Shown: positions 13,170 through 56,098 of the stretch, piece by piece
Layout of the letters: each line of letters begins with the position of its first letter
Numbering within the stretch: position 1 is the first letter of the stretch
DNA from: Planctomycetaceae bacterium
GTDB taxonomy: Bacteria; Planctomycetota; Planctomycetia; Planctomycetales; Planctomycetaceae
Direction of reading: 5' to 3'
DNA: 64,000 nucleotides
NCBI GenBank assembly: GCA_014762625.1
Contig: JABURQ010000067.1
Coordinates: 1 to 64,000, forward strand
Notes under the pieces: generated by a model
Told to the model about the DNA's origin: nothing
Databases searched by the model: none
The model's input: the letters and a program-made list of their open reading frames with translations, nothing else
Position numbers and translations under genes: made by a program

Positions 13170-15707
13170 TTAAGTTTTGGCGAGCGGGTCCTCCGGCCAG
13201 GCGTGTTTCGAGTATCGTCTCCGGAGGTCTTTTCGTACCTGCGGATAAGTGTTTTCCCAGAAGCTCGTCAGGTCGTCGGTGATCTGTTGCGGTCGCATAT
13301 TGGGAGCCAGCAGGTGCAATTGTAACGGCACTCGACCATTGGCAATCGTCGGCGTCTCACGCTGACCGAACAGTTCCTGAATGCGAATGGCGAGAACCGG
13401 CGGTTTGCCGGCTTCGTATTCCAGTTTGTAACTCTTTCCCGAAGGAGCCTGCCAGCGCGTGGGGGTAAGTTGTTCGATCTGTTGGAGTGTGGAATAGTCA
13501 AACCGGCTCTGCAGCATGCCGAGCCAGTCGCTTTTCCTCAGGTCGTCGAACGAACGGCACGTCCGACAGAGATCGCGGAGGACCTCCTTGATCAGTTCCT
13601 CATCGGCAGTCGGAAGTTCGAGTTCCGGGCACCATTCGTGGAGAGACTGAACGCGAGCGACGAACTGATCGAACGCGCGTTGCTCTTTGGGAAAGATGCG
13701 ATCCCAGTGTCCACAGGCGGCCCGGAACAGGGCCTCTTCCGTTGCTTCGTTATCCGGTACGGGGATCGGACTCTCGTCCAGCTTCAGGTCGTCCCAGTAA
13801 GTCCGTCGGCGTCCCATGAGTTGCTGTTGAGTCGGGTGGAAGAAGACTTCATCACGCGTCTCCAGCAATTCCTCGGGAAGCCATTCCTGTTCCACGCCGG
13901 ACGCCAATCGGACTTTGGCATTCGCCGACTTGTCATCGACATCGATGCAGAGAAACAGATCCGCTTCCCGGACGACGGATAACGGTGCCAATTGAACTCC
14001 CCGGCCTCCCACCATCAGCGCGTTCGGTTTTCCCGCTTGTCGTCGCTTAGCCAGACGATCCGGATAAGCGGCCAACAGGGCCTGAAGAATGTGCTGCTCT
14101 TCATTGCCGTGGCTGGCGACCGGTTCTCCGAGTTGCGATTCGATCATATTCCGCAGTTGCTGAGCGATTCGTTCGATGTTCTTCCCCGTTCCCCGGTTGA
14201 AGTCTCCGAACGATTCCGGATAGGGCCGCCCCGCCATCGCCGCTTCAAATGCCTCAAGACGCTCCAGAACATCTGAGCGCCCGTTGTGTGTCGCCATCAC
14301 ATCACGTGGAGACGACTTTCCTCGCCCCCGATGTCTGACTCGAAACGGATCGCGCTCGGACAACAGGGCAGCGAGAGTCGCGATGCGGTCGGGAATTCCG
14401 CGCCGGTGTCCTTCGATCAAGAGACGAGCGAGACGCGGACTGACCGGAAAGCGGGACATGCTGATTCCCAGAACGGTCGGTCCCGTTTCATCGAGGGCTC
14501 CGAGGCGTTCGAGGAGTTGTTCCGCGTGTGCAGCCGATGCTTCCTGAGGCGGTTCGAACCACGGAAACTCGCCGAGATCGGTTTCTCCCCAGACTTTGAG
14601 TTGCAGGAAGACACCCGAGAGATCGACGCGGTGAATCTCGGCGGTTTCGTGCTCGGGACGATGCCGATGCTGTGCCTGTTCCCAGAGCCTGAGGCAATAA
14701 CCGGGAGCGGTCCGCCCTGCCCGTCCCGTCCGTTGATCCGCGCTGGCTTGCGAGATCGGAACGAGTTCCAGCCGGTCTAGTCCCAGGTCGTGGTTGAATT
14801 GCATGCTGCGGGCGAGCCCCGAGTCGATCACGCCCGTCACTCCGTCGATCGTCAATGAAGACTCGGCCACATTCGTCGCCAGGACCACTTTGCGTTGAGA
14901 GCAGGGGGATAACACCTCGTCCTGTTTCTCCAGCGGCAAATTCCCGTACAGTTGCAGGAGTTTCAGATCCCGTTTCGCGGCCAGCGATTCCAGTTCGCGG
15001 GTGGCGTTGAAGATTTCGCCTACTCCCGGCAGAAAGATCAGCACGTCTCCCGGTGTCCTGTCGAGAATGTCAGGCAGATGAGCGGCGATTTGTTGTTCGA
15101 GTCTTCGCTGATCGCGTCGTTTGACGTACTCAATGGTGACGGGATACTGTCGCCCTTCGCTATTCACGACCGGGCAGTTGCCGAGATACTCGGAGATCGG
15201 TTCCGCGGCGAGTGTTGCCGACATCACCACGATTTTCAGATCGGGCCGAATCGTCTGTTGCACGCAGCGTACCATCGCGAGGCAGACATCGCTTTCCAGC
15301 CCCCGCTCGTGGAACTCATCGAACACGACCGCTCCCACCTCTTCGAGAAACGGATCGTCCTGCAAACGGCGGAGCAGAATGCCGTCCGTGACGGTGAGTA
15401 ACTTTGTTTCCCGACTTTTGCGACTGTCGAATCGGACCTGATACCCGACCAGACCACCTAACGAGTTCCCCATCTCATCCGCAATGCGACGCGCTGCCGC
15501 TCGGGCCGCGATGCGACGCGGTTCGAGCATGATGATCTGTTTATTATCCGAAAGCCCGGCATTCCAGATCGCAGGCGGAACCCTGGTGGTTTTTCCGGCT
15601 CCCGTCGGTGCATGCAGCACGACTGAATTCGAGGTCTCCAATCGGTCGAGCAACTCGGGCAGGATCTCAGCAATCGGTAAGTCGGGATGTTCGGAGGATT
15701 CGTTCAT
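13170..15707 (-). CDS. hrpB: ATP-dependent helicase HrpB
   Basis: An 845-residue DEAH-family helicase. Walker A is APTGAGKTT, motif II is DEFHERGLESD, motif III SATLAAEP and motif VI QRTGRAGRTAPGYCLRL. The C-terminal HrpB region runs to HAWPEDP, the family-typical end. Length is normal for HrpB (about 820). The cellular role of bacterial HrpB is not settled; RNA processing or nucleic-acid remodelling is likely. It is monocistronic, divergent from the DUF1501 gene. Confidence 0.95.
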   Translation of the reverse strand: MNESSEHPDLPIAEILPELLDRLETSNSVVLHAPTGAGKTTRVPPAIWNAGLSDNKQIIMLEPRRIAARAAARRIADEMGNSLGGLVGYQVRFDSRKSRETKLLTVTDGILLRRLQDDPFLEEVGAVVFDEFHERGLESDVCLAMVRCVQQTIRPDLKIVVMSATLAAEPISEYLGNCPVVNSEGRQYPVTIEYVKRRDQRRLEQQIAAHLPDILDRTPGDVLIFLPGVGEIFNATRELESLAAKRDLKLLQLYGNLPLEKQDEVLSPCSQRKVVLATNVAESSLTIDGVTGVIDSGLARSMQFNHDLGLDRLELVPISQASADQRTGRAGRTAPGYCLRLWEQAQHRHRPEHETAEIHRVDLSGVFLQLKVWGETDLGEFPWFEPPQEASAAHAEQLLERLGALDETGPTVLGISMSRFPVSPRLARLLIEGHRRGIPDRIATLAALLSERDPFRVRHRGRGKSSPRDVMATHNGRSDVLERLEAFEAAMAGRPYPESFGDFNRGTGKNIERIAQQLRNMIESQLGEPVASHGNEEQHILQALLAAYPDRLAKRRQAGKPNALMVGGRGVQLAPLSVVREADLFLCIDVDDKSANAKVRLASGVEQEWLPEELLETRDEVFFHPTQQQLMGRRRTYWDDLKLDESPIPVPDNEATEEALFRAACGHWDRIFPKEQRAFDQFVARVQSLHEWCPELELPTADEELIKEVLRDLCRTCRSFDDLRKSDWLGMLQSRFDYSTLQQIEQLTPTRWQAPSGKSYKLEYEAGKPPVLAIRIQELFGQRETPTIANGRVPLQLHLLAPNMRPQQITDDLTSFWENTYPQVRKDLRRRYSKHAWPEDPLAKT

Positions 15708-28438: not shown

Positions 28439-28755
28439 GATCTGCTCCTTCGTGAGCGAATCGTTCAGGGTGTCTATCGATGGTGGAGGGATCGAGTAAC
28501 CGATCCCCTAGCAGCCCGTTGTAATATAAACCGTATTGGTGACAGGTTTTTCACAACCGGCTACCCGGATTATAAGTGGTCGGTGGCCAAGTTCAATCAC
28601 CAAGCCGGTTTGCAGAGCCTGAATGCTGAGATTGTCCGATTGTTTTCATCGTTTCTTCTCGGAATCTAAGTCGGACCGACCCAAACCGCTGGGAAATGTC
28701 CCGATTGACGTGCGTTCAATGCGGGACTACGCTGAAGTAATGAGATCTCTTTCCT
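28439..28755. other. Gap with a solo MITE end
   Basis: The only recognisable item is CTAG followed by CAGCCCGTTG at 28508-28521, identical to the terminal sequence of the MITE-like elements with its CTAR target. No body or second end is visible. The rest, between divergent sdhC and the antitoxin gene, should hold both promoters but none was assigned. Confidence 0.5.
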
Positions 28756-28992
28756 ATGGAGTCTTCTATCGTGAACCTCGATCAAACCATTGAGAATCTG
28801 TCAGCATTGTCGGTGGAAGAACGCCTCCAGATTGTCCAGCGCCTGTGGGACACAATCCCAGCTGAGACTCCGGTTCAACTTTCACCCTCACAAAAAGAGG
28901 AGCTGGAACTTCGGATCGCCGCGCACGATGCTGATCCCGACTCCGCGTTGACCCGCGAACAACTCGAAGCACGACTGAAGAGTTCAAGATAA
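28756..28992 (+). CDS. Addiction-module antitoxin
   Basis: A 78-residue antitoxin of the putative addiction module component family (the short helical antitoxins paired with RelE/ParE toxins). Typical features: NLSALSVEERLQIVQRLWDT at residues 15-34 and the C-terminal REQLEARLKSSR. The stop overlaps the following toxin start (TAATG). The toxin is broken, so this antitoxin is now unpaired locally. Confidence 0.85.
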   Translation: MESSIVNLDQTIENLSALSVEERLQIVQRLWDTIPAETPVQLSPSQKEELELRIAAHDADPDSALTREQLEARLKSSR

Positions 28993-29075
28993 TGGTGAAG
29001 GTCGCCTATCGTCCTAAAGTTGCTGACGATCTTCAACAAGCCATGGATTGATATGAAGACAAGGTGAGTGAACCG
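28992..29075 (+). pseudogene. RelE/ParE-type toxin remnant with nonsense codon
   Basis: The frame begins MVKVAYRPKVADDLQQAMD and then hits TGA at 29049-29051, followed in the same frame by YEDKVSE. RelE/ParE toxins of this family normally read VDWYE here, so TGA most simply replaces the TGG of Trp. Family similarity ends about 8 codons later, so the distal toxin has also been lost. Only a 19-residue peptide could be translated. Confidence 0.85.
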
Positions 29076-29118
29076 GTGTCCGCGAATTGTGGGAAAGCTT
29101 TTTTTAGAATGATTGTAA

Positions 29119-29634
29119 ATGGGCGTTTATTATTACTACGTCAACGAGACTAACGAGCAATATTTCTGTATTGATCCGAGTGGAACTGACATCAAAAAGT
29201 ATGCGCTTGGAGACAATATTGGTTCTCGTGCTCTCCATTATTTGCTGCTCAACAATGACGAGTATTTCACTGGTGTGCCGGCTCATTCGATGGTTGGTAG
29301 TTGGATAGGTACTCATTTCTTTGTGACTGGTGATGACTACGACGAGCGTTTTAAGGATTTCCAAGAGAAGTTTGAAAATATTGGTCAGTCCGTTGTCGAG
29401 ATGATCGTCGAGATCGCACCGTACGATCTAGTCACGCATGGAGGTGTGGAGTGGCTCCTGACCGTCCTCCAATACAATGGAAAATTCATCACAATCGATC
29501 CGAAAATGCGAAAAAGAATGTCAAAAGCGTTTCGGCAGAGTAATCATCTCCAGCCAGATGAAGAGTTACAGAAGGTCATAACAGAATTGAAGGCGCTCCA
29601 CGAAAGAGATTACGAGCCATTTTTTGATGATTGA
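29119..29634 (+). CDS. Hypothetical soluble protein
   Basis: A 171-residue acidic protein with no family I recognise. It opens MGVYYYYVNETNEQYFCIDP and ends acidic (PFFDD). No signal peptide or membrane segment. Composition is more AT-rich than the core genes nearby, and it sits with immunity-like genes in the islet, so an immunity or accessory role is possible but unsupported. Confidence 0.6.
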   Translation: MGVYYYYVNETNEQYFCIDPSGTDIKKYALGDNIGSRALHYLLLNNDEYFTGVPAHSMVGSWIGTHFFVTGDDYDERFKDFQEKFENIGQSVVEMIVEIAPYDLVTHGGVEWLLTVLQYNGKFITIDPKMRKRMSKAFRQSNHLQPDEELQKVITELKALHERDYEPFFDD

Positions 29635-29822
29635 AGAAGTATCTGCTCTTACACGGAGAAGCGTCCCACTTCAAAAGAGTCTCGAAGATTGGACACGCCG
29701 ACGGAAGTCGGCAGGAGATCACGGAAGAGGGTTGGGATTTCTGGTATAATTCTAGTTGTCACGAGCCGGCCAGGAACGAGATATGTAACATGTGAGCTGC
29801 TTTTTCAACGAATGAAAGAAAA

Positions 29823-30227
29823 ATGTCATTTCGTGAATGGTACAAGGAACAGTTCTCCGAGACTCTGAAGGAACCGTTGTCTGATTCCGACCGCATTCCC
29901 GATGACGAAATTGATCGGCTGCTCGATGGACGGGAAATACCGCTCGCATTGCGTGACTATTATCGTGTCGCCGGACGGCATTGGATGAACTCCAACTACG
30001 ATCGATTGCTGGCTCCGAACGAATTACGTCGAGAACATTCCCACATCATGTTCATGGACGAAAATCAGAATGTTGGACACTGGGGATTCAATCAAGAAGA
30101 CGCTGCTGAAAATGATCCAGAGGTCTACCTGGGACAATGGGAAGGCGATGATTTTGTCTGGTACGATCAAGGACAAACCCTGAGCCGATTCATTATCGAA
30201 AGTTGGTTGGAAACCTGTACCGGCTAA
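29823..30227 (+). CDS. SMI1/KNR4-like putative immunity protein
   Basis: A 134-residue acidic protein. The pattern IPDDEIDRLLDGREIPLALRDYY followed by an aromatic, acidic segment and a closing LSRFIIESWLE resembles SMI1/KNR4-type (SUKH-like) proteins, many of which neutralise polymorphic toxins. Only the overall pattern supports the call. No toxin is adjacent. It is the first of two small genes in one direction. Confidence 0.55.
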   Translation: MSFREWYKEQFSETLKEPLSDSDRIPDDEIDRLLDGREIPLALRDYYRVAGRHWMNSNYDRLLAPNELRREHSHIMFMDENQNVGHWGFNQEDAAENDPEVYLGQWEGDDFVWYDQGQTLSRFIIESWLETCTG

Positions 30228-30305
30228 GGAAGTGATGACGAGGTTACTGATTGATGAGGCTCGGGGAAATTTATCTCCTGGATCCGCGAACAAGAGGAAC
30301 TTGCC

Positions 30306-30623
30306 ATGAATTACGAGGACGTCGAAACGAAGTTGCACAGTTTGACAAATACGCTGGTTCATGAGCTCATCTCACTGACGCCGGAATCAATGTCAGAGAT
30401 TCAGTTTGAAATTCTTTCGACGGACGACGGCGGAGCCGATGTCGGTTTACTGGAAACTCATCCTGATGCCAAAAAAGTGGCTCTCAGCGATGCTGTTTTT
30501 ACGGCATCATCTCATTATTTGCCTTTGGTCAAACAATATGTGAACGGCTGGCAGCGAACACTCATTTCGCTTCAAGAAGGTGAGGAAGGTTGGCAGGTCA
30601 ACGTGGAATTCGAGCAAGCATGA
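30306..30623 (+). CDS. YezG-like putative immunity protein
   Basis: A 105-residue acidic protein. The alternating pattern (IQFEILSTDDGGADVGLLE, then LPLVKQYVNGWQRTLISL, then a C-terminal strand WQVNVEFE) resembles YezG/DUF600-type immunity proteins. GAGGAA lies upstream. It follows the SMI1-like gene by about 80 bp. The assignment is tentative. Confidence 0.5.
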   Translation: MNYEDVETKLHSLTNTLVHELISLTPESMSEIQFEILSTDDGGADVGLLETHPDAKKVALSDAVFTASSHYLPLVKQYVNGWQRTLISLQEGEEGWQVNVEFEQA

Positions 30624-40722: not shown

Positions 40723-40761
40723 AACTCCCGTTGAGATGTTTCTCTCAGCGGGAGTTTTTTT
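40723..40761 (+). terminator. Intrinsic terminator of the sulfatase
   Basis: AACTCCCG and CGGGAGTT form an 8-bp stem extended inward by TTGAGA/TCTC pairing, followed by seven T. It isolates the following AT-rich gene from the sulfatase transcript. Confidence 0.9.
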
Positions 40762-40840
40762 GTGTGCGGGTGAAAATCTCACTTTTTTCTCATTTCAATT
40801 CATTTTGTCATGTGAAGTAGATGGGGCGTGATTTACGATC

Positions 40841-40851
40841 ACAACTGTTGT
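40841..40851. promoter_or_regulatory. Operator-like palindrome ACAAC-T-GTTGT
   Basis: A perfect 5-1-5 palindrome, 33 bp before the preferred start of the ATPase-S24 gene. Many S24-domain proteins control their own genes, so a regulatory site is conceivable. It could also be chance. Confidence 0.25.
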
Positions 40852-40883
40852 CATGTCTATTGTTGTTTGAATGGTCATATCTC

Positions 40884-43800
40884 ATGCTGAGCCCTCAATC
40901 CCAAGAAGTGATCGACATACTCTTAGCCGGTGAAGAAGTTGGGACCGCTGAGAATTCAATAAATATCTTTGATGCTGATGCGCAGTCCTTTCTGCAAGTC
41001 CTGATTGACAATCAAGACAAACTTAATGAATTGAGTGGTGCGAGAAGAGCCGAACTCGCTCTGAAAAAATTTCTCGAAGTTAAAGAACAACTGAAAGAAG
41101 AAGCTACTGAGCAAGCACAGGAGGTCGAAACGGTAGAAGAAGCCGAACAAACGAGCGAGGTGAAACGATATCGCCTCATTTCGATAAGCTGCAATTCGTT
41201 TCGCGGAATCGCTCCGGCAGGTGAGGATTTTGAGTTCGAATTTGATGCGAAATCAACACTCATCTATGGTCCTAACGGAAGCGGCAAATCGAGCCTTATG
41301 GGAGCCATCACTTGGGCGCTTTCCGGCACTGCTGTGACAGATTCAGGCAACACAAGCAAGGGCAGTAAGGATGCTTCTCTCCATAAGAAGATAGACAATA
41401 AACAGAAGAAAGGAAGCAAGGCTACCGATTGGCCGGTTGTTGCGACAATTCCGGATGGTGAAATAGATAATACCACTGAGCCTAAATGTTCCGTAACACT
41501 TGAACTTCAATCGCAAGCAGATCAAAGCATCTTGCGAGTTCGTCGCTCATTGGAAAGGGAGCTTGAAGCCTGCGAACACGCTGATTTTGATGACGAAGCC
41601 AATTGGAAGGTTGTTCGGGATTTATCTCAGTTTCAGATCAGCGCTTTGGATATACAGTTATCAGTGGTTGCTCCGACGATTTTTGGACGATCAACAGTCG
41701 AGGAGGCGGAAAGTACGACTAAACTTCTGGGTATGGTGTTGGGATTCGATGGACTCGCAGAACTGGGAAAACTTGCCGGCGATATCGGGGGAAATTGCTC
41801 GAGGCTTGTCACAACAACAAATCAACAAAGGGATGGGATTGAAGAGGCTCTTAATACGTCTCTGCAAAATGCCCTCGAAGACATCCCAGACACTTCTCCG
41901 GAGCAACCGCGGATCAAAGAGTTCATTGCTGATGAAACAAAAGAACAAAATGTTGTCGATGAAATTATCGAATCCCTGAACCAATCTCAAGTAGAGGCGG
42001 AAGCAGCGTTAGCAGCATTGCTAGGAATAGAGATTGATGAGGAAAGCGAAGTTTCCGCCGGGCTTTCAGAGGCTTTGATTAGGGAACTGGGAAATCTCAA
42101 GAATGATGGCCTCAAACGAATTTTTCCATCTCTCGATGCTGATTTGGAGATGCAATCGATATTGAAAGGAAATGAGGAGCCCCAGGAGGAAGTGCTAAAT
42201 GCTCGATATGCCGAATTTAAAGCTTTCCTGGCGGAAGCTAGAGAGCGAATTGCTCAACGTTTTGAGTGGAAGAAAAAAGAAGATGCGCACACCAAACTTC
42301 CGCTAATGCGTCATGCTGCTGAGGAGTTTCATGCAGATGAAAACCTATGTCCCGTCTGTGATCAATCGCTGGAGCCTGTTCCCAAAGTCAAGGAAGAGCT
42401 TGAGAGCTTGCAGGATGTTGAATCAGAGTACCTTGAAGAGCCAGAACGTTTTTTTCGCACCCTAAAAATTGAACTGGAAGACACTGTCTCTAATTCAATC
42501 AGAACATTGGCCGACAAGACTCCCGGTGAAAGGTTGATCGAAGACTGGACGGACTATTTGGAGAACAGATTTCCAGAATCGCTGAATGCCATCGCAACGA
42601 CCTTAGAACCAAGTTTCAGAGAAATCGTAGACGGCTTCGAAGAGGTGACAGCTGCGTCGATCTCGTTGTATCCGGATGATGCGACTGAAGACTTCGCCAA
42701 CTCGGGGGCTGCTTTCGAACAAGCCGTTAAGGATGCCACTTCAGGGTATGCAGTCGCAGATTGGCTCCTGAAGAACATAGAAACCGCGAAGCAAAAACTC
42801 GCGAAATGCCTCACTTCAACAGAAGAGGAAGAGAATTCACTTGTACTAAAACTACAAGCAGGGAAACAGACTGCCGACGAAATCACACCCGTGAAAAATA
42901 CACTGAAGCATTTGGGACAGTCAAAACAACATTTAGAAAAACTGGAGAAAATTGATAGTCAGCTGAGTGCATTAGCTGATCTCAAAACTGCGATTGAGCG
43001 AGTAAAAGAATTGAAAACGTATGCCGAGACAGAAGTCGTGAATCGATTTACTCAAGTCTCGGATCAAACTCTCGACAACTGGAAAAAACTGTATAAGAAC
43101 AAAGTCAGTGGATTACTACCTTGCAAGATGGTGATCGAAAAACGAAAAGCTGATGTGGCAGTTTTTCTGACGCAAGGTGATGTTGAGGTCCCATCAGTTC
43201 CTTTTGCCAACGCAGGTCTTCAACGCTCGATAGCCCTCTGCTTCTACTTTGCACTTCTGGAAAAACATCCCAACGGGCTGAATTTTATTGTTATGGACGA
43301 CCCGATTTTATCTCTTGACGAAAATCACCGAGAAAGATGGTCGAGGCGTTTATTGTGTCCTGAGACGAATGATCGACAATCAATCATTGCTACACATCAG
43401 GAGCAATATGCCGAGCATTGTAGAGAACAATTTCCATCAGATAGTTACTTCAGGTTAATTGATCGAAAACATAGAAATAGAATCACATGCGAACCTACTC
43501 AACGTTTGCAGAAGGCTGAAATAAAGATTCACGCTGGGGATAAAAGCGCTGCGTTCGAAATGAGAATGTTTGTCGAAGAGATATACTTATCCTTTGAGTC
43601 TTATTCCCCGGATGCTTTTTTCTTTGGCAATTTAACTCAGATGACGAATTCATACGCTTCGTTCTCTAAACCACATCCTCTCGCAAGCAATACTCAAAAT
43701 AAGATAGTTGCACGTTTGAATAAACAAGAAGTAACCTCAGTGACAAACCCGGGATCGCACAAGTATACCCAACCAAATGTGTCAATAACGATGTGTGAAG

Positions 43801-44711
43801 ATTGCCTGGAAGAGTTAAGAACTGTCGAAGGGCAATTCAAAAACGAGCTCAAACGGTTATCAACAGTTCGAGCACATGCACTTCGAGATGCATCAATCCC
43901 TTCCGCAGTCATTCAATTCTCGCAGTTACCGGACACGGCTATATGGAGTGGTGTGCAGCTTATGAAAGTGGCGACTGCTGCCGCCAGAAATAATACATGG
44001 GTTTTGGAGGAGAGTCAGGGTGTAGCAGTGTTGTCTGTTGTTGATGGAGAGGCAATTGTTTGTGCAACAAATGCTATCGAGCCAGTGATTCGATTTGGAC
44101 AATGGATACTGATAGCTCCAGAATCTGAGTTGCCCGAGGATGGAGACTTGGTTGCCGTTGACTGCGTGAATGGTGATCGATTGGTGAGAAGGATTTGGTC
44201 AAGTCGAGATGACTGGACATTACAGGCAATTAATCCTGTAGAGCCAATTCCAGATCATACTGTCCCAAAAGTTGGATCTCCTGTTCGAAAAATTCTGGGA
44301 GTACTTTACGAGCCACTCCAGACTACTCAATCATCAAACAATAACAATATTATTGAATGGCAACCCAGTAACCACTTTAACAACAATGTTTTATCATCGT
44401 TGGAAGGTGTCCAAGTAATAGGCGAGAGCATGAAGCCAATTGCATGTCCGGGTCAGCATGTTTTGATCGACAAAGACCCAATAGCGAACAATGAGATTCA
44501 TAATGGGGATCTTGTTGTGGCTGATACAAATGACGAAGACATTGGTCGGGTAATCAAAAGATTCTACAGAACCGACAATGGATGTGTGCTTATCAGCCCC
44601 AACCCCGTTGATCCTCATGCACCCGAAACAATGAGTGAGGAACAAATGCAACTGGCGAATTTCTGGAAGGTTAAGGGCGTGTTGTTCGAAGCTCATGAAA
44701 TTGAAGATTAA
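40884..44711 (+). CDS. Rad50/SMC-like ATPase fused to tandem LexA/S24-type domains
   Basis: A protein of 1275 residues (1296 if an ATG at 40821 is used). Residues 1-95 are helical and acidic. An ABC-type ATPase follows: Walker A GPNGSGKSS at 129-137; a long interrupted coiled coil; a zinc-hook-like CPVC at 489-492; an altered signature (FANAGLQRSIAL); Walker B FIVMDDPILSLDEN around 801-815; and a switch-His segment IIATHQEQ. After about 200 residues of unknown type come two S24-like domains. The first has NAIEP where the Ser-Met motif belongs and Arg for the Lys. The second has GESMKP (Ser1182) and VIKRF (Lys1225), the complete peptidase pair. No HTH is visible. Codon use is AT-richer than its neighbours. 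It stands alone between terminator and an opposed gene, suggesting an acquired one-gene defence or damage-response module. Confidence 0.85.
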   Translation: MLSPQSQEVIDILLAGEEVGTAENSINIFDADAQSFLQVLIDNQDKLNELSGARRAELALKKFLEVKEQLKEEATEQAQEVETVEEAEQTSEVKRYRLISISCNSFRGIAPAGEDFEFEFDAKSTLIYGPNGSGKSSLMGAITWALSGTAVTDSGNTSKGSKDASLHKKIDNKQKKGSKATDWPVVATIPDGEIDNTTEPKCSVTLELQSQADQSILRVRRSLERELEACEHADFDDEANWKVVRDLSQFQISALDIQLSVVAPTIFGRSTVEEAESTTKLLGMVLGFDGLAELGKLAGDIGGNCSRLVTTTNQQRDGIEEALNTSLQNALEDIPDTSPEQPRIKEFIADETKEQNVVDEIIESLNQSQVEAEAALAALLGIEIDEESEVSAGLSEALIRELGNLKNDGLKRIFPSLDADLEMQSILKGNEEPQEEVLNARYAEFKAFLAEARERIAQRFEWKKKEDAHTKLPLMRHAAEEFHADENLCPVCDQSLEPVPKVKEELESLQDVESEYLEEPERFFRTLKIELEDTVSNSIRTLADKTPGERLIEDWTDYLENRFPESLNAIATTLEPSFREIVDGFEEVTAASISLYPDDATEDFANSGAAFEQAVKDATSGYAVADWLLKNIETAKQKLAKCLTSTEEEENSLVLKLQAGKQTADEITPVKNTLKHLGQSKQHLEKLEKIDSQLSALADLKTAIERVKELKTYAETEVVNRFTQVSDQTLDNWKKLYKNKVSGLLPCKMVIEKRKADVAVFLTQGDVEVPSVPFANAGLQRSIALCFYFALLEKHPNGLNFIVMDDPILSLDENHRERWSRRLLCPETNDRQSIIATHQEQYAEHCREQFPSDSYFRLIDRKHRNRITCEPTQRLQKAEIKIHAGDKSAAFEMRMFVEEIYLSFESYSPDAFFFGNLTQMTNSYASFSKPHPLASNTQNKIVARLNKQEVTSVTNPGSHKYTQPNVSITMCEDCLEELRTVEGQFKNELKRLSTVRAHALRDASIPSAVIQFSQLPDTAIWSGVQLMKVATAAARNNTWVLEESQGVAVLSVVDGEAIVCATNAIEPVIRFGQWILIAPESELPEDGDLVAVDCVNGDRLVRRIWSSRDDWTLQAINPVEPIPDHTVPKVGSPVRKILGVLYEPLQTTQSSNNNNIIEWQPSNHFNNNVLSSLEGVQVIGESMKPIACPGQHVLIDKDPIANNEIHNGDLVVADTNDEDIGRVIKRFYRTDNGCVLISPNPVDPHAPETMSEEQMQLANFWKVKGVLFEAHEIED

Positions 44712-44735
44712 TGACGATTTGTGAGGGGAATAGAG

Positions 44736-52877: not shown

Positions 52878-53639
52878 CTATCGCGTCCACTCCTCAAACA
52901 GCACGCGGTAGTAGTTCATCACCTTGATCGGGTCATCGGTCGCCGGACTTTCCGAAAGACACCAGCCGTGATAGTCGATTCCTTTCAGCAGTCGGAATAA
53001 TTCCCGATAGGGATATCGCGGGTCGTAGAGATCGTGGATGTGGATGACGTCGGCGAGCGTGTCTTTGAGGAGTGCAAACGGTTCGGCGATGGAGCCGTCT
53101 TTGACTTCGCCTGGATTACAGTTCCAGCAGAGACCCACGTTGGGGTGATCGGCGAGATCGAAAATCTGGCGCATGAATTTCGGATCCTGACTCCCCCGTC
53201 CGTGGACTTCGACACGGATTTCCTGGCCGTAGCCTTCCGCGAATTCTCCGCACTCTCTCAGCGCTTTACCGATTCGGGCGGCCGTAACGTCGGGAGCTTC
53301 CCCTTTGTTGAGTCCGTTGGGGCGAACCTTGACGCCGGTTGCTCCGATGTCGTGGGAGAGCACGACGAACTTTTTGGTCAACTCAATATTGTCCCGCACG
53401 ACGGCCGCATCGGGACTGTGATATTCGCACGCCGAACCGACGCCGACACAGGTCACGGGCGAGTCGGCGAAGCGTTTCCGGACATCCTCCCGCTCGGTTT
53501 CAGTCAGCGTGACCTCGACGCCGTGCGCGTGAGTGCTGCGAAGTTCGACGCCGGCAAAACCGGTCTGTTCGCAATTCTTGATCAAGGTGGGGAGATCCCA
53601 TTTCGCTCCCCAGAGATAAGTGACCATGCCGAGTTGCAT
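52878..53639 (-). CDS. Sugar phosphate isomerase/epimerase-like TIM-barrel protein
   Basis: A 253-residue AP-endonuclease-2-type TIM barrel. Metal-binding residues of the family appear in order: GFAGVELRSTHAHGVE near residue 30, EIRVEVHGRG near 142, GLCWNCNPGEV near 172, HIHDLY near 200 and a final GWCLSESPA near 225. These enzymes isomerise or epimerise sugars or inositol derivatives; the substrate is not readable. No signal peptide. Single gene, convergent with the lipoprotein gene. Confidence 0.9.
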   Translation of the reverse strand: MQLGMVTYLWGAKWDLPTLIKNCEQTGFAGVELRSTHAHGVEVTLTETEREDVRKRFADSPVTCVGVGSACEYHSPDAAVVRDNIELTKKFVVLSHDIGATGVKVRPNGLNKGEAPDVTAARIGKALRECGEFAEGYGQEIRVEVHGRGSQDPKFMRQIFDLADHPNVGLCWNCNPGEVKDGSIAEPFALLKDTLADVIHIHDLYDPRYPYRELFRLLKGIDYHGWCLSESPATDDPIKVMNYYRVLFEEWTR

Positions 53640-53990
53640 GCTGTGGCTCCTGCAATATCTGAATTAAATGGAAGTCATTCAGAGTATGCGATTCGGTGGT
53701 CTCAGAGCAAAGAGAAAACAGGAAGGTCGGCACTTATGAGATGACTTCCTGAGAGCTTGTCTTTCAAGTCTCCATTCGTAGCCCTCAGGAAATTTGAAGG
53801 CAGGCTCTTACACTTGGAAGGTATGAATTTGCTGTTGTGGGGATGTGAATGTTTGAATCAAGTTTGATTAAAAGGTATCGTCATCTGGGACTGGGTGAAA
53901 AAAATTTGACAAGAGTTTTTTTTGAAATGTACTCTCAAGTATCCATCTTTTTCTGCTCATTGATTGAAAAGCATTAACAGAAAGTTTGGG
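53640..53990. other. Gene-free AT-rich gap
   Basis: About 350 bp between divergent genes, with no recognised gene or repeat. The last 150 bp are markedly AT-rich, like the membrane-protein gene that follows. Confidence 0.5.
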
Positions 53991-54794
53991 ATGTCTGAAA
54001 CATCAGCAGATGATCGCGGTGCTTCGAATGAATCACGTTTATCTGACACAGCAAAAATTCTTGTGGTTCAAGTACAGCAGCTCATACGCTATGGACATGG
54101 GGGCTTATTAGTTTTTGGGATTGTGGCTCTTTACAACCCTGATTTCATAAAAGAAATTGTCACGAGTCTTGGTGGTCCGCTATCGATGTTGATGGTCTTG
54201 TCTATCGGAGCACCAATTTACGTGATCCATCGATATGTGATAGGTGAGTATTGCATCTATCCGCTTACCAACATTATTCATATCTATGTTTGGGACAAGA
54301 TAAGCTGTAAGCTCCGGAAAATAAAAGAATTTGAAACAACCAGTGTGACTGGGATGCTTGAACAGCAAGGTATCAAAGTAGAATCATACGATTGGCTATT
54401 TGGGTATTTTCTCCGGCGAAAGGTTTATTCGGACTGGAGGCAAGCATATTTGCCTGAAAAGAAAAAAAATCTGCTCAACCTATTCCATGCTGAAGTACAT
54501 ATTTTATGGATATCCGCAGTTATTGTGATGGGGGTGATTCTTTCTAGCTACATGTTCAGTGATGTTGGTGATTCAATCAAAGGGGATTTGAAGTATTGGT
54601 GCATCCTGTTCTTTGTACTGGTTTTCTCAGGACTGGTAGGAGACATTCAACTTCACAGTAAGCAGTGTCGAGATCTTCGCTCACAGGAAGCTGACCTCAA
54701 GAAGTTTCTCGAGGAATATGGATATCTGGGCAAGAACACCGTAGAAGTCAATCAGCCGATTTCTCAAAGCAATCATGAGAATTTGGTAGGGTAA
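53991..54794 (+). CDS. AT-rich hypothetical membrane protein
   Basis: A 267-residue protein with four likely membrane helices in two pairs: HGGLLVFGIVALYNP and LSMLMVLSIGAPIYVI, then ILWISAVIVMGVILSSYMF and LKYWCILFFVLVFSGLVG. A cytoplasmic part of about 90 residues lies between the pairs and a charged coiled C-terminus (EEYGYLGKN region) ends the protein. No known family. Base and codon use are richer in A and T than its neighbours, as in the ATPase-S24 gene, suggesting transfer. Confidence 0.7.
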   Translation: MSETSADDRGASNESRLSDTAKILVVQVQQLIRYGHGGLLVFGIVALYNPDFIKEIVTSLGGPLSMLMVLSIGAPIYVIHRYVIGEYCIYPLTNIIHIYVWDKISCKLRKIKEFETTSVTGMLEQQGIKVESYDWLFGYFLRRKVYSDWRQAYLPEKKKNLLNLFHAEVHILWISAVIVMGVILSSYMFSDVGDSIKGDLKYWCILFFVLVFSGLVGDIQLHSKQCRDLRSQEADLKKFLEEYGYLGKNTVEVNQPISQSNHENLVG

Positions 54795-54913
54795 CTCATT
54801 CAGTCCGCAGACTCGATTGGCGACCCTTCACCTTCGAGCACAAGAATTGGAGTCTGGATCTTGTGGCACACGGCTCTTGAAGAACAAAGTAAACGGTCCT
54901 GAGTGCAGAGAAA

Positions 54914-56098
54914 CTACAGCCGGACTAAACAAGTGCCCCAGCTCAAACCCGCTCCAAACCCGCACATCAGCACGGTGTCGCCTTCCGCGATTTGTCCCGC
55001 GCGGCGGGCTTCGTCGAGCACGATAGGAATCGAGCCGGCGGAGGTATTACCGTATTTGTCGAGATTCTTAAAAACGCGGCTGGACGGGACGCCGAGTTGC
55101 TGCATGGCGTGATTGATGATGCGGACGTTAGCTTGATGCAAGAGAAACATGGAAACGTCCTGCGGTCCCATGCCGGCGTGATCGAGGACGGTTTCAATCG
55201 TTTCCGTCACGGCATTTACGGCCCATTTGAAGACGCTGCGCCCGTCCATCTTGAGGAGATGGTTTCCGCTCGCAAGATCCTCTGCGGTGGCCGGTTTCCG
55301 CGTTCCACCCGCAGGGCGATCGAGCAGCGAGCCGCCGCTTCCATCCGCGCCCAACTGATAACTGATCAATCCCTGATGAGGAGATCCGCGACCGATCAAT
55401 ACGGCTCCCGCTCCATCGCCGAACAGCGGCGCAGTTCGCATGTCGGCGGGATCGACAATCCGACTGTTGACGTCGGCTCCGATCACCAGTGCCAATTCCG
55501 AGTTGCCGGTCGCCACGTATTGCGAGGCCGTCACCAGTGAGTAGACAAAGCCGGAGCAGGCGGCCTGTAAGTCCATGGCGGGAGCATCGAGTCCGAGTCG
55601 ATCCTGAACGATGCATGCCGTGGAAGGACACATGTAGTCGGGGGTAAATGTTCCGACCACGAGCAGGTCGATGTCCTCTTTCTTGACGTGAGAGGTTTCG
55701 ATCGCTCGCAAAGCGGCTTCGACGGCCAGATCGCTGGTCGCTTCCGATTCTTCAGCATGACGACGTTCGCGGATGCCGGTCCGTTGTTCGATCCAACCCG
55801 GTTCGAAGCCGTACTGTTCTTCGAGTTGTTCGTTGGTGACAACGCGATCGGGGACGTAAGATCCTGTGGAGAGGATCTCAATTCCGAGAAGGCTCTGAAT
55901 TCTGCGACTGCGTCGAAACACGGGATTGGAGTCTCGTTTATCCTGAGTGGTCTGGCGAATCGAAACCCCGATGGAACCTTCCGAAGCGGGTGGTGCTTCA
56001 GCGGTTTCGTCCGCGAGGGGAATATGTGGTCGATGCGGTTGCGTCATAACGGAATCAGGGGCAATGTCTTGCTTCCTCTGACGAACGTTGGAATCCAT
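54914..56098 (-). CDS. fabH: 3-oxoacyl-ACP synthase III with N-terminal extension
   Basis: A KAS III enzyme starting fatty-acid chains by condensing acyl-CoA with malonyl-ACP. The catalytic triad is present: Cys in DLQAACSGFVYSLV, His in LLHQANVRIINHAM and Asn in DKYGNTSAGS. The family normally begins near LGIEILSTGSYVPD, but about 70 polar, low-similarity residues precede it here. Possible starts are this ATG, another 17 codons later, or a TTG at 56164; none has a good ribosome site. It stands alone, away from other fab genes. Confidence 0.9.
   Translation of the reverse strand: MDSNVRQRKQDIAPDSVMTQPHRPHIPLADETAEAPPASEGSIGVSIRQTTQDKRDSNPVFRRSRRIQSLLGIEILSTGSYVPDRVVTNEQLEEQYGFEPGWIEQRTGIRERRHAEESEATSDLAVEAALRAIETSHVKKEDIDLLVVGTFTPDYMCPSTACIVQDRLGLDAPAMDLQAACSGFVYSLVTASQYVATGNSELALVIGADVNSRIVDPADMRTAPLFGDGAGAVLIGRGSPHQGLISYQLGADGSGGSLLDRPAGGTRKPATAEDLASGNHLLKMDGRSVFKWAVNAVTETIETVLDHAGMGPQDVSMFLLHQANVRIINHAMQQLGVPSSRVFKNLDKYGNTSAGSIPIVLDEARRAGQIAEGDTVLMCGFGAGLSWGTCLVRL

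Follow-up and report, generated by a model that had tools for sequence, protein, structure and literature searches.

The window analysed here, a stretch of 64,000 nucleotides from a Planctomycetaceae bacterium (contig JABURQ010000067.1, positions 1 to 64,000 of the forward strand), carries a gene that joins a Rad50-like ABC ATPase to a tandem pair of LexA-type S24 peptidase domains in one chain. The protein is tentatively read, at somewhat less than an even chance, as a solitary, mobile anti-invader protein that would hold sensor and response in the same polypeptide and in which the ATPase would control a Ser-Lys protease. Its anatomy and context agree with a mobile single-protein immune system of the broad LmuB, RloC and Rad50 kind that carries a protease module in a position not found described. 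Judged by comparison of its relatives, the fusion is real, conserved and old. The gene and its parts, with residues counted from the ATG at 40884, are as follows.

40884-44711, forward strand: whole gene, 1275 amino acids, with Rad50-like ATPase, central Arg-Glu-His (R-E-H) domain, apparent pseudo-S24 and active-type S24
41181-41561, forward strand: N-terminal lobe of the ABC ATPase (AAA_23, residues 100-226), with Walker A GPNGSGKSS at 41268-41294
42348-42359, forward strand: CPVC zinc-hook motif (residues 489-492), within the helical arm
43209-43397, forward strand: C-terminal lobe of the ABC ATPase, with degenerate signature Asn776...Arg781, Walker B VMDDPILSLD and H-loop Thr837-His838
43416-43913, forward strand: central conserved, mainly helical domain (about residues 845-1010), with Arg894-x3-Glu898 and His at 959/960
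43986-44318, forward strand: proximal S24 (about residues 1035-1145), degenerate, with Ala1064 at the Ser position and Arg1102-Arg1103 for Lys-Arg
44319-44708, forward strand: distal S24 with linker (about residues 1146-1275), with Ser1182 (44427-44429) and Lys1225 (44556-44558)

Sixteen relatives with the same domain order were aligned with the window protein, to which they are 16-39% identical. All 17 sequences of this alignment span both S24 domains, and 16 cover the N-terminal ATPase lobe, the exception being L027, which is cut by a contig end. The relatives come from a second planctomycete, from Alphaproteobacteria and from Pseudomonas. A tblastn search of plasmids identified members in Rhizobium, Sphingomonas, Phyllobacterium, Mesorhizobium, Bradyrhizobium, Pseudomonas and Methylorubrum; a profile search identified L013, from another planctomycete in the host's family, at 39% identity; and ten more alphaproteobacterial loci came from an alignment-based scan of GTDB genomes. 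An earlier scan of genome contigs with the single protein as query found no relatives. Homologues of the same order therefore exist, not only separate ATPase and S24 genes, and an artefactual or trivial fusion was rejected on account of these 16 relatives.

The Rad50-type Walker A, Walker B and H-loop and a CPxC hook in the helical arm are all present, and GPNGSGKSS, CPVC and the Walker B MDDP with LSLDEN lie where the earlier note had placed them. Within Walker A (residues 129-137), Gly129, Asn131, Gly132, Gly134 and Lys135 are invariant in the 16 alignment rows that cover the site, as is CPxC in the 16 rows covering the hook; Asp805, Asp806 and Pro807 of MDDPILSLDEN (residues 804-814; Walker B 804-812) are invariant in 17 of 17. 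The Rad50_zn_hook model matches 4 of the 17 family members. The canonical ABC signature is absent from the alignment and is replaced by N-[AST]-[GS]. The catalytic Glu expected next to the Walker B Asp is also absent, its place being taken by Asp806, as in the DDP of RloC and PrrC. Pfam matches of the window protein are AAA_23 (E=4.2e-13), SMC_N (E=3.5e-10) and, in two stretches, Peptidase_S24 (E=1.4e-15), and its best PADLOC model is Lamassu LmuB (E=3e-27, over residues 105-859). For the C-terminal ATPase lobe there are Rad50 matches in the PDB. A full-length model, itself of low confidence, matched Rad50 from the Mre11-Rad50 complex best, and Lamassu LmuB came among the hits that followed. 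The AlphaFold models were built from nine sequences and have low confidence (mean predicted local distance difference test, pLDDT, 40 and 42); only the distal-S24 match and the Rad50 match were used from them, because the sequence evidence agrees with both.

Two S24-like domains at the C-terminus, one with GESMKP and a correctly spaced Lys, had also been proposed, and both are found, the intact motifs belonging to the distal copy. There Ser1182 lies within GESMKP (residues 1180-1185) and Lys1225 within IKRF; Ser1182, Pro1185, Lys1225 and Arg1226 do not vary in any of the 17 rows, and the Ser-to-Lys spacing is 43 residues in the window protein and 42-47 across the family. In the proximal copy the Ser position is occupied by Ala, Ser or Thr, and Arg-Arg stands at the Lys-Arg position in all rows, given a one-column alignment shift between clades. 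Comparison of the proximal and distal profiles by hhalign (probability 97, E=2e-11) indicates that both copies are real and homologous to each other. The structural model of the distal S24, moderately confident within an otherwise poor C-terminal model, matches LexA C-terminal domains in the PDB by Foldseek (probability 1.00), so that an S24 fold at the C-terminus is found by structure prediction as well; LexA-RecA complexes and signal peptidases are also among the matches of this search. From the conservation of the dyad and from the fold, the distal S24 looks like a competent Ser-Lys protease, while the proximal S24, to judge from its residues, looks like a pseudo-protease.

The layout "ATPase then S24" of the earlier note is correct in its order and incomplete, as it passed over the conserved domain at about residues 845-1010. 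This domain, about 165 residues long, follows the H-loop (837-838) and precedes the S24 pair. All 17 rows keep Arg894 and Glu898 unchanged, and each has a His at 959 or 960. In the window protein this His sits in N-x2-S-H, the form also found in several of the RloC relatives that were fetched for comparison, among which R-x3-E and S-H are invariant. The published RloC motif is Arg-x3-Glu-x36-52-His, often with Ser before the His (PMC2610378). RloC and PrrC are tRNA anticodon nucleases with a triad of Arg, Glu and His after the ABC ATPase, and RloC carries a Rad50-like zinc hook (PMC2610378; PMC3710099). The Glu-to-His spacing is 60-70 in the S24-fusion family versus the 36-52 published for RloC. 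By its motif the central R-E-H domain resembles the RloC/PrrC anticodon-nuclease motif; its identity as an RNase is a lead, with homology unproven, and this overlooked domain may be the actual toxin. The PADLOC PrrC match (E=1.6e-6) spans residues 784-990 and appears to rest on the ATPase lobe. In a distant planctomycete, PrrC-like genes (L045 167-2697 and L044 201-2673) overlap an upstream open reading frame (ORF) resembling the specificity subunit of a type I restriction system, an arrangement shared with classical prr loci.

The window gene is an uninterrupted ORF. It is listed from 40821, its stop ends at 44711, and the ATG at 40884 is preferred as start because the relatives begin there (MSLNLQSQ...). 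It was described earlier as solitary, AT-rich and following a terminator, and each of these points stands: its guanine-plus-cytosine (GC) content is 44.7% versus 56-59% in its neighbours, and its GC at third codon positions (GC3) is 41% versus 68-72% in two neighbours. Two features mark its borders.

40724-40762, forward strand: intrinsic terminator of the upstream sulfatase gene
40770-44735, no strand: approximate single-gene insertion, between the sulfatase gene and a neutral-ceramidase-like gene

In L039 and L040, from two congeneric genomes, about 72 bp separate the sulfatase gene from the ceramidase-like gene, with no gene between them, which makes the window gene a one-gene insert; a similar hairpin is present in these empty-site congeners, so the terminator belongs to the sulfatase neighbour. 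On the empty congener sites and the foreign composition, the window gene is a horizontally acquired single-gene insert. No flanking transposase was found at the insertion, and no convincing direct or target repeats were found at its ends. Carriage by phages or viruses was considered and rejected: no phage record matched, and two scans of viral contigs gave generic ATPase matches or nothing. Two further low-GC stretches of the window (about 43-48%; 53500-55000 and 28500-30500) are possible further insertions.

The family occurs in at least 2 of 392 sampled planctomycete genomes, a lower bound as the search scored only two candidates per genome, and no member is found in the genomes closest to the host. 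In a maximum-likelihood tree the planctomycete pair stands apart from two other groups, although several deep branches are long and the way they join is uncertain. Horizontal movement is indicated by close copies in distant hosts, one on a Sphingomonas plasmid and one in Gluconobacter (88%). The Phyllobacterium relative (L007 11494-12688) is split by a transposase-like ORF just past the hook region. Two rhizobial plasmid relatives (L004 15072-16187 and L003 15254-15679) end prematurely within the proximal S24, and one of these two adjoins an IS630 transposase.

That relatives might lie in defence islands is confirmed for several of them: AbiLi/AbiLii is directly upstream of the relative in L018, SLATT and a UG17 reverse transcriptase are upstream in L009, Shedu and IetAS are near the relative in L011, and IetS is near that in L003. 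Others (L021, L025 and L002) look solitary or lie near metabolic genes. Integrases, large recombinases, a relaxase and plasmid partition genes recur near relatives, and no recurrent LmuA-like partner was seen beside them. In L022 a 185-amino-acid ORF without Pfam match (13843-14400) has a 4-bp overlap with the end of the family gene and is a possible partner in that clade. Directly 3' of two closely related copies (L006 13920-14399 and L024 13943-14455) there is an ORF that is weakly GNAT-like, below the Pfam cut-off. The relatives in L003, L005, L007, L008 and L022 have SbcD/SbcC-like genes as neighbours. The pairs near four of these relatives, either a possible partner nuclease or a separate defence system, are located as follows.

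L005, 15800-20821: SbcD/SbcC-like pair
L007, 4354-9110: SbcD/SbcC-like pair
L008, 1-2940: SbcD/SbcC-like pair
L022, 5165-9447: SbcD/SbcC-like pair

The window protein shares features with several known systems. With the C-terminal domains of LexA, UmuD and CI it shares the fold, as found by structure search, and the G-x-S-x-x-P and K-R motifs; unlike them it has no helix-turn-helix (HTH) domain and no canonical cleavage site, and its S24 domains form a tandem with an inactive-looking first copy, joined to an ABC ATPase. Lamassu LmuB (ABC-3C, DdmABC), its best PADLOC match, likewise has Rad50-like heads and, in many cases, a CPxC hook, and couples a sensor ATPase to a variable effector in a defence setting. 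LmuB, however, works with a separate LmuA and usually LmuC and is about 650 amino acids long, whereas the chain of 1275 amino acids is about double that and ends in S24 domains; membership of Lamassu fails, LmuA and LmuC being absent beside the gene. RloC and PrrC are alike in their DDP-type Walker B followed by an R-x3-E...H domain and in uniting sensor and toxin in one gene, and RloC also in its Rad50-like ATPase with hook, but the window protein adds two S24 domains, a degenerate ABC signature and a longer Glu-to-His spacing. Rad50 and SbcC share the ATPase heads, coiled arm and CPxC hook; in contrast to them the window gene has no adjacent Mre11/SbcD gene, and its product has Asp for the Glu after Walker B and an extra C-terminal half. 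IetAS, whose genes adjoin two relatives, follows a comparable defence logic, with an ATPase acting together with a subtilisin-like serine protease, but consists of two genes, with an unrelated AAA ATPase and an unrelated S8 protease.

A more specific form of the anti-invader reading, possible but distinctly doubtful, is an undescribed single-gene immune class whose LexA-fold Ser-Lys protease is triggered by a Rad50-like DNA-sensing ATPase rather than by RecA and in turn switches an RNase of RloC type on the same polypeptide. The mechanism preferred for the main anti-invader reading runs as follows. The Rad50/LmuB-like heads, linked through the CPVC hook, would bind foreign or damaged DNA, as family resemblance suggests. 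An ATP-driven rearrangement would then activate the C-terminal module, composed of a dead scaffold S24 and a competent Ser-Lys protease S24. The most likely result would be a single regulated cut near or within this module, probably in an Ala-rich stretch before the proximal S24, that would free or silence the central R-E-H domain, taken as an RloC/PrrC-like RNase toxin, and translation would stop in the infected cell.

Several results weigh against this scheme. The central domain alone matches no PrrC or RloC model, and its profile comparison with RloC/PrrC is not significant (about 0.06). The structure models have low confidence everywhere except in part of the distal S24, and no defence genes neighbour the window gene within the window. 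In LexA, UmuD and CI the cleavage site lies 35, 36 and 38 residues, respectively, from the Ser. The window protein lacks Ala-Gly or Cys-Gly 30-40 residues before either Ser position, and among the relatives no such pair is conserved upstream of the distal Ser, so the ATPase-triggered, LexA-style self-cleavage proposed in the earlier note is unsupported for the window protein. A cut elsewhere in the chain or in trans is possible, to judge from the residues present. A rival explanation, unlikely though deserving attention, makes the S24 pair the effector: the distal S24 would cleave a host or phage protein in trans after DNA sensing, and the central domain would be structural or serve in docking. 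The dyad is invariant, yet there is no conserved scissile site in cis, and signal peptidases, which act on other proteins, are among the fold-search matches. In Lamassu systems, moreover, the effectors that accompany the SMC-like sensor are diverse and include proteases (PMC10586767). The conservation of the central Arg and Glu, however, equals that of the dyad, and a passive docking role would not call for this. Known S24 enzymes are, in addition, mainly self-processing.

It is less probable again that the S24 module is a RecA-coupled switch that responds to the RecA filament as LexA and CI do, self-cleavage parting the ATPase from a regulatory tail and linking the protein to the SOS response. 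The host encodes canonical LexA and RecA, which would in principle allow such coupling; the fold matches include LexA-RecA complexes, and in most alphaproteobacterial relatives a [KR]-A-G-D-G motif precedes the proximal Ser position by a constant 30-32 residues. This motif, however, is missing from the window protein, L013, L009 and L002, it precedes the dead domain and at a shorter distance than in LexA, UmuD or CI, and no HTH was found. In most alphaproteobacterial members (L018-L027) a conserved Ala-rich stretch precedes it, the two together forming a possible cleavage site that the planctomycete members lack. A Rad50-type protein of DNA repair or chromosome maintenance, with the S24 domains acting only in dimerisation or binding and without proteolysis, is rather improbable, slightly more so than the RecA switch. 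S24 domains do dimerise in LexA and UmuD, the ATPase and hook are Rad50-like, and SbcD/SbcC-like genes lie near several relatives; but in a pure scaffold Ser1182 and Lys1225 would not stay invariant at 16-20% identity when the sister copy has lost them, and the patchy, mobile distribution and the defence neighbours are unlike those of a housekeeping gene. A decaying gene or chance fusion without system-level function is hardly credible. The gene is solitary and AT-rich, and some relatives (L007, L004 and L003) are split or truncated, but its 1275 codons are intact, active-site residues are kept across three clades, and the 16 relatives largely refute this view.

No described system of the same domain order was found in the literature: in line with the earlier note, a search found no ABC ATPase-S24 fusion described, though an earlier mention in the 2020 ABC-ATPase classification is possible. 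The known LexA-type proteases sit behind DNA-binding domains and act as switches that RecA triggers. If the reading is true, the LexA fold could be triggered in a second way, by the Rad50/LmuB-like ATPase into which the protease is built, and built-in proteolysis would join the responses of SMC-like immune sensors. As a single-gene family with intact members in culturable bacteria, it is directly testable.

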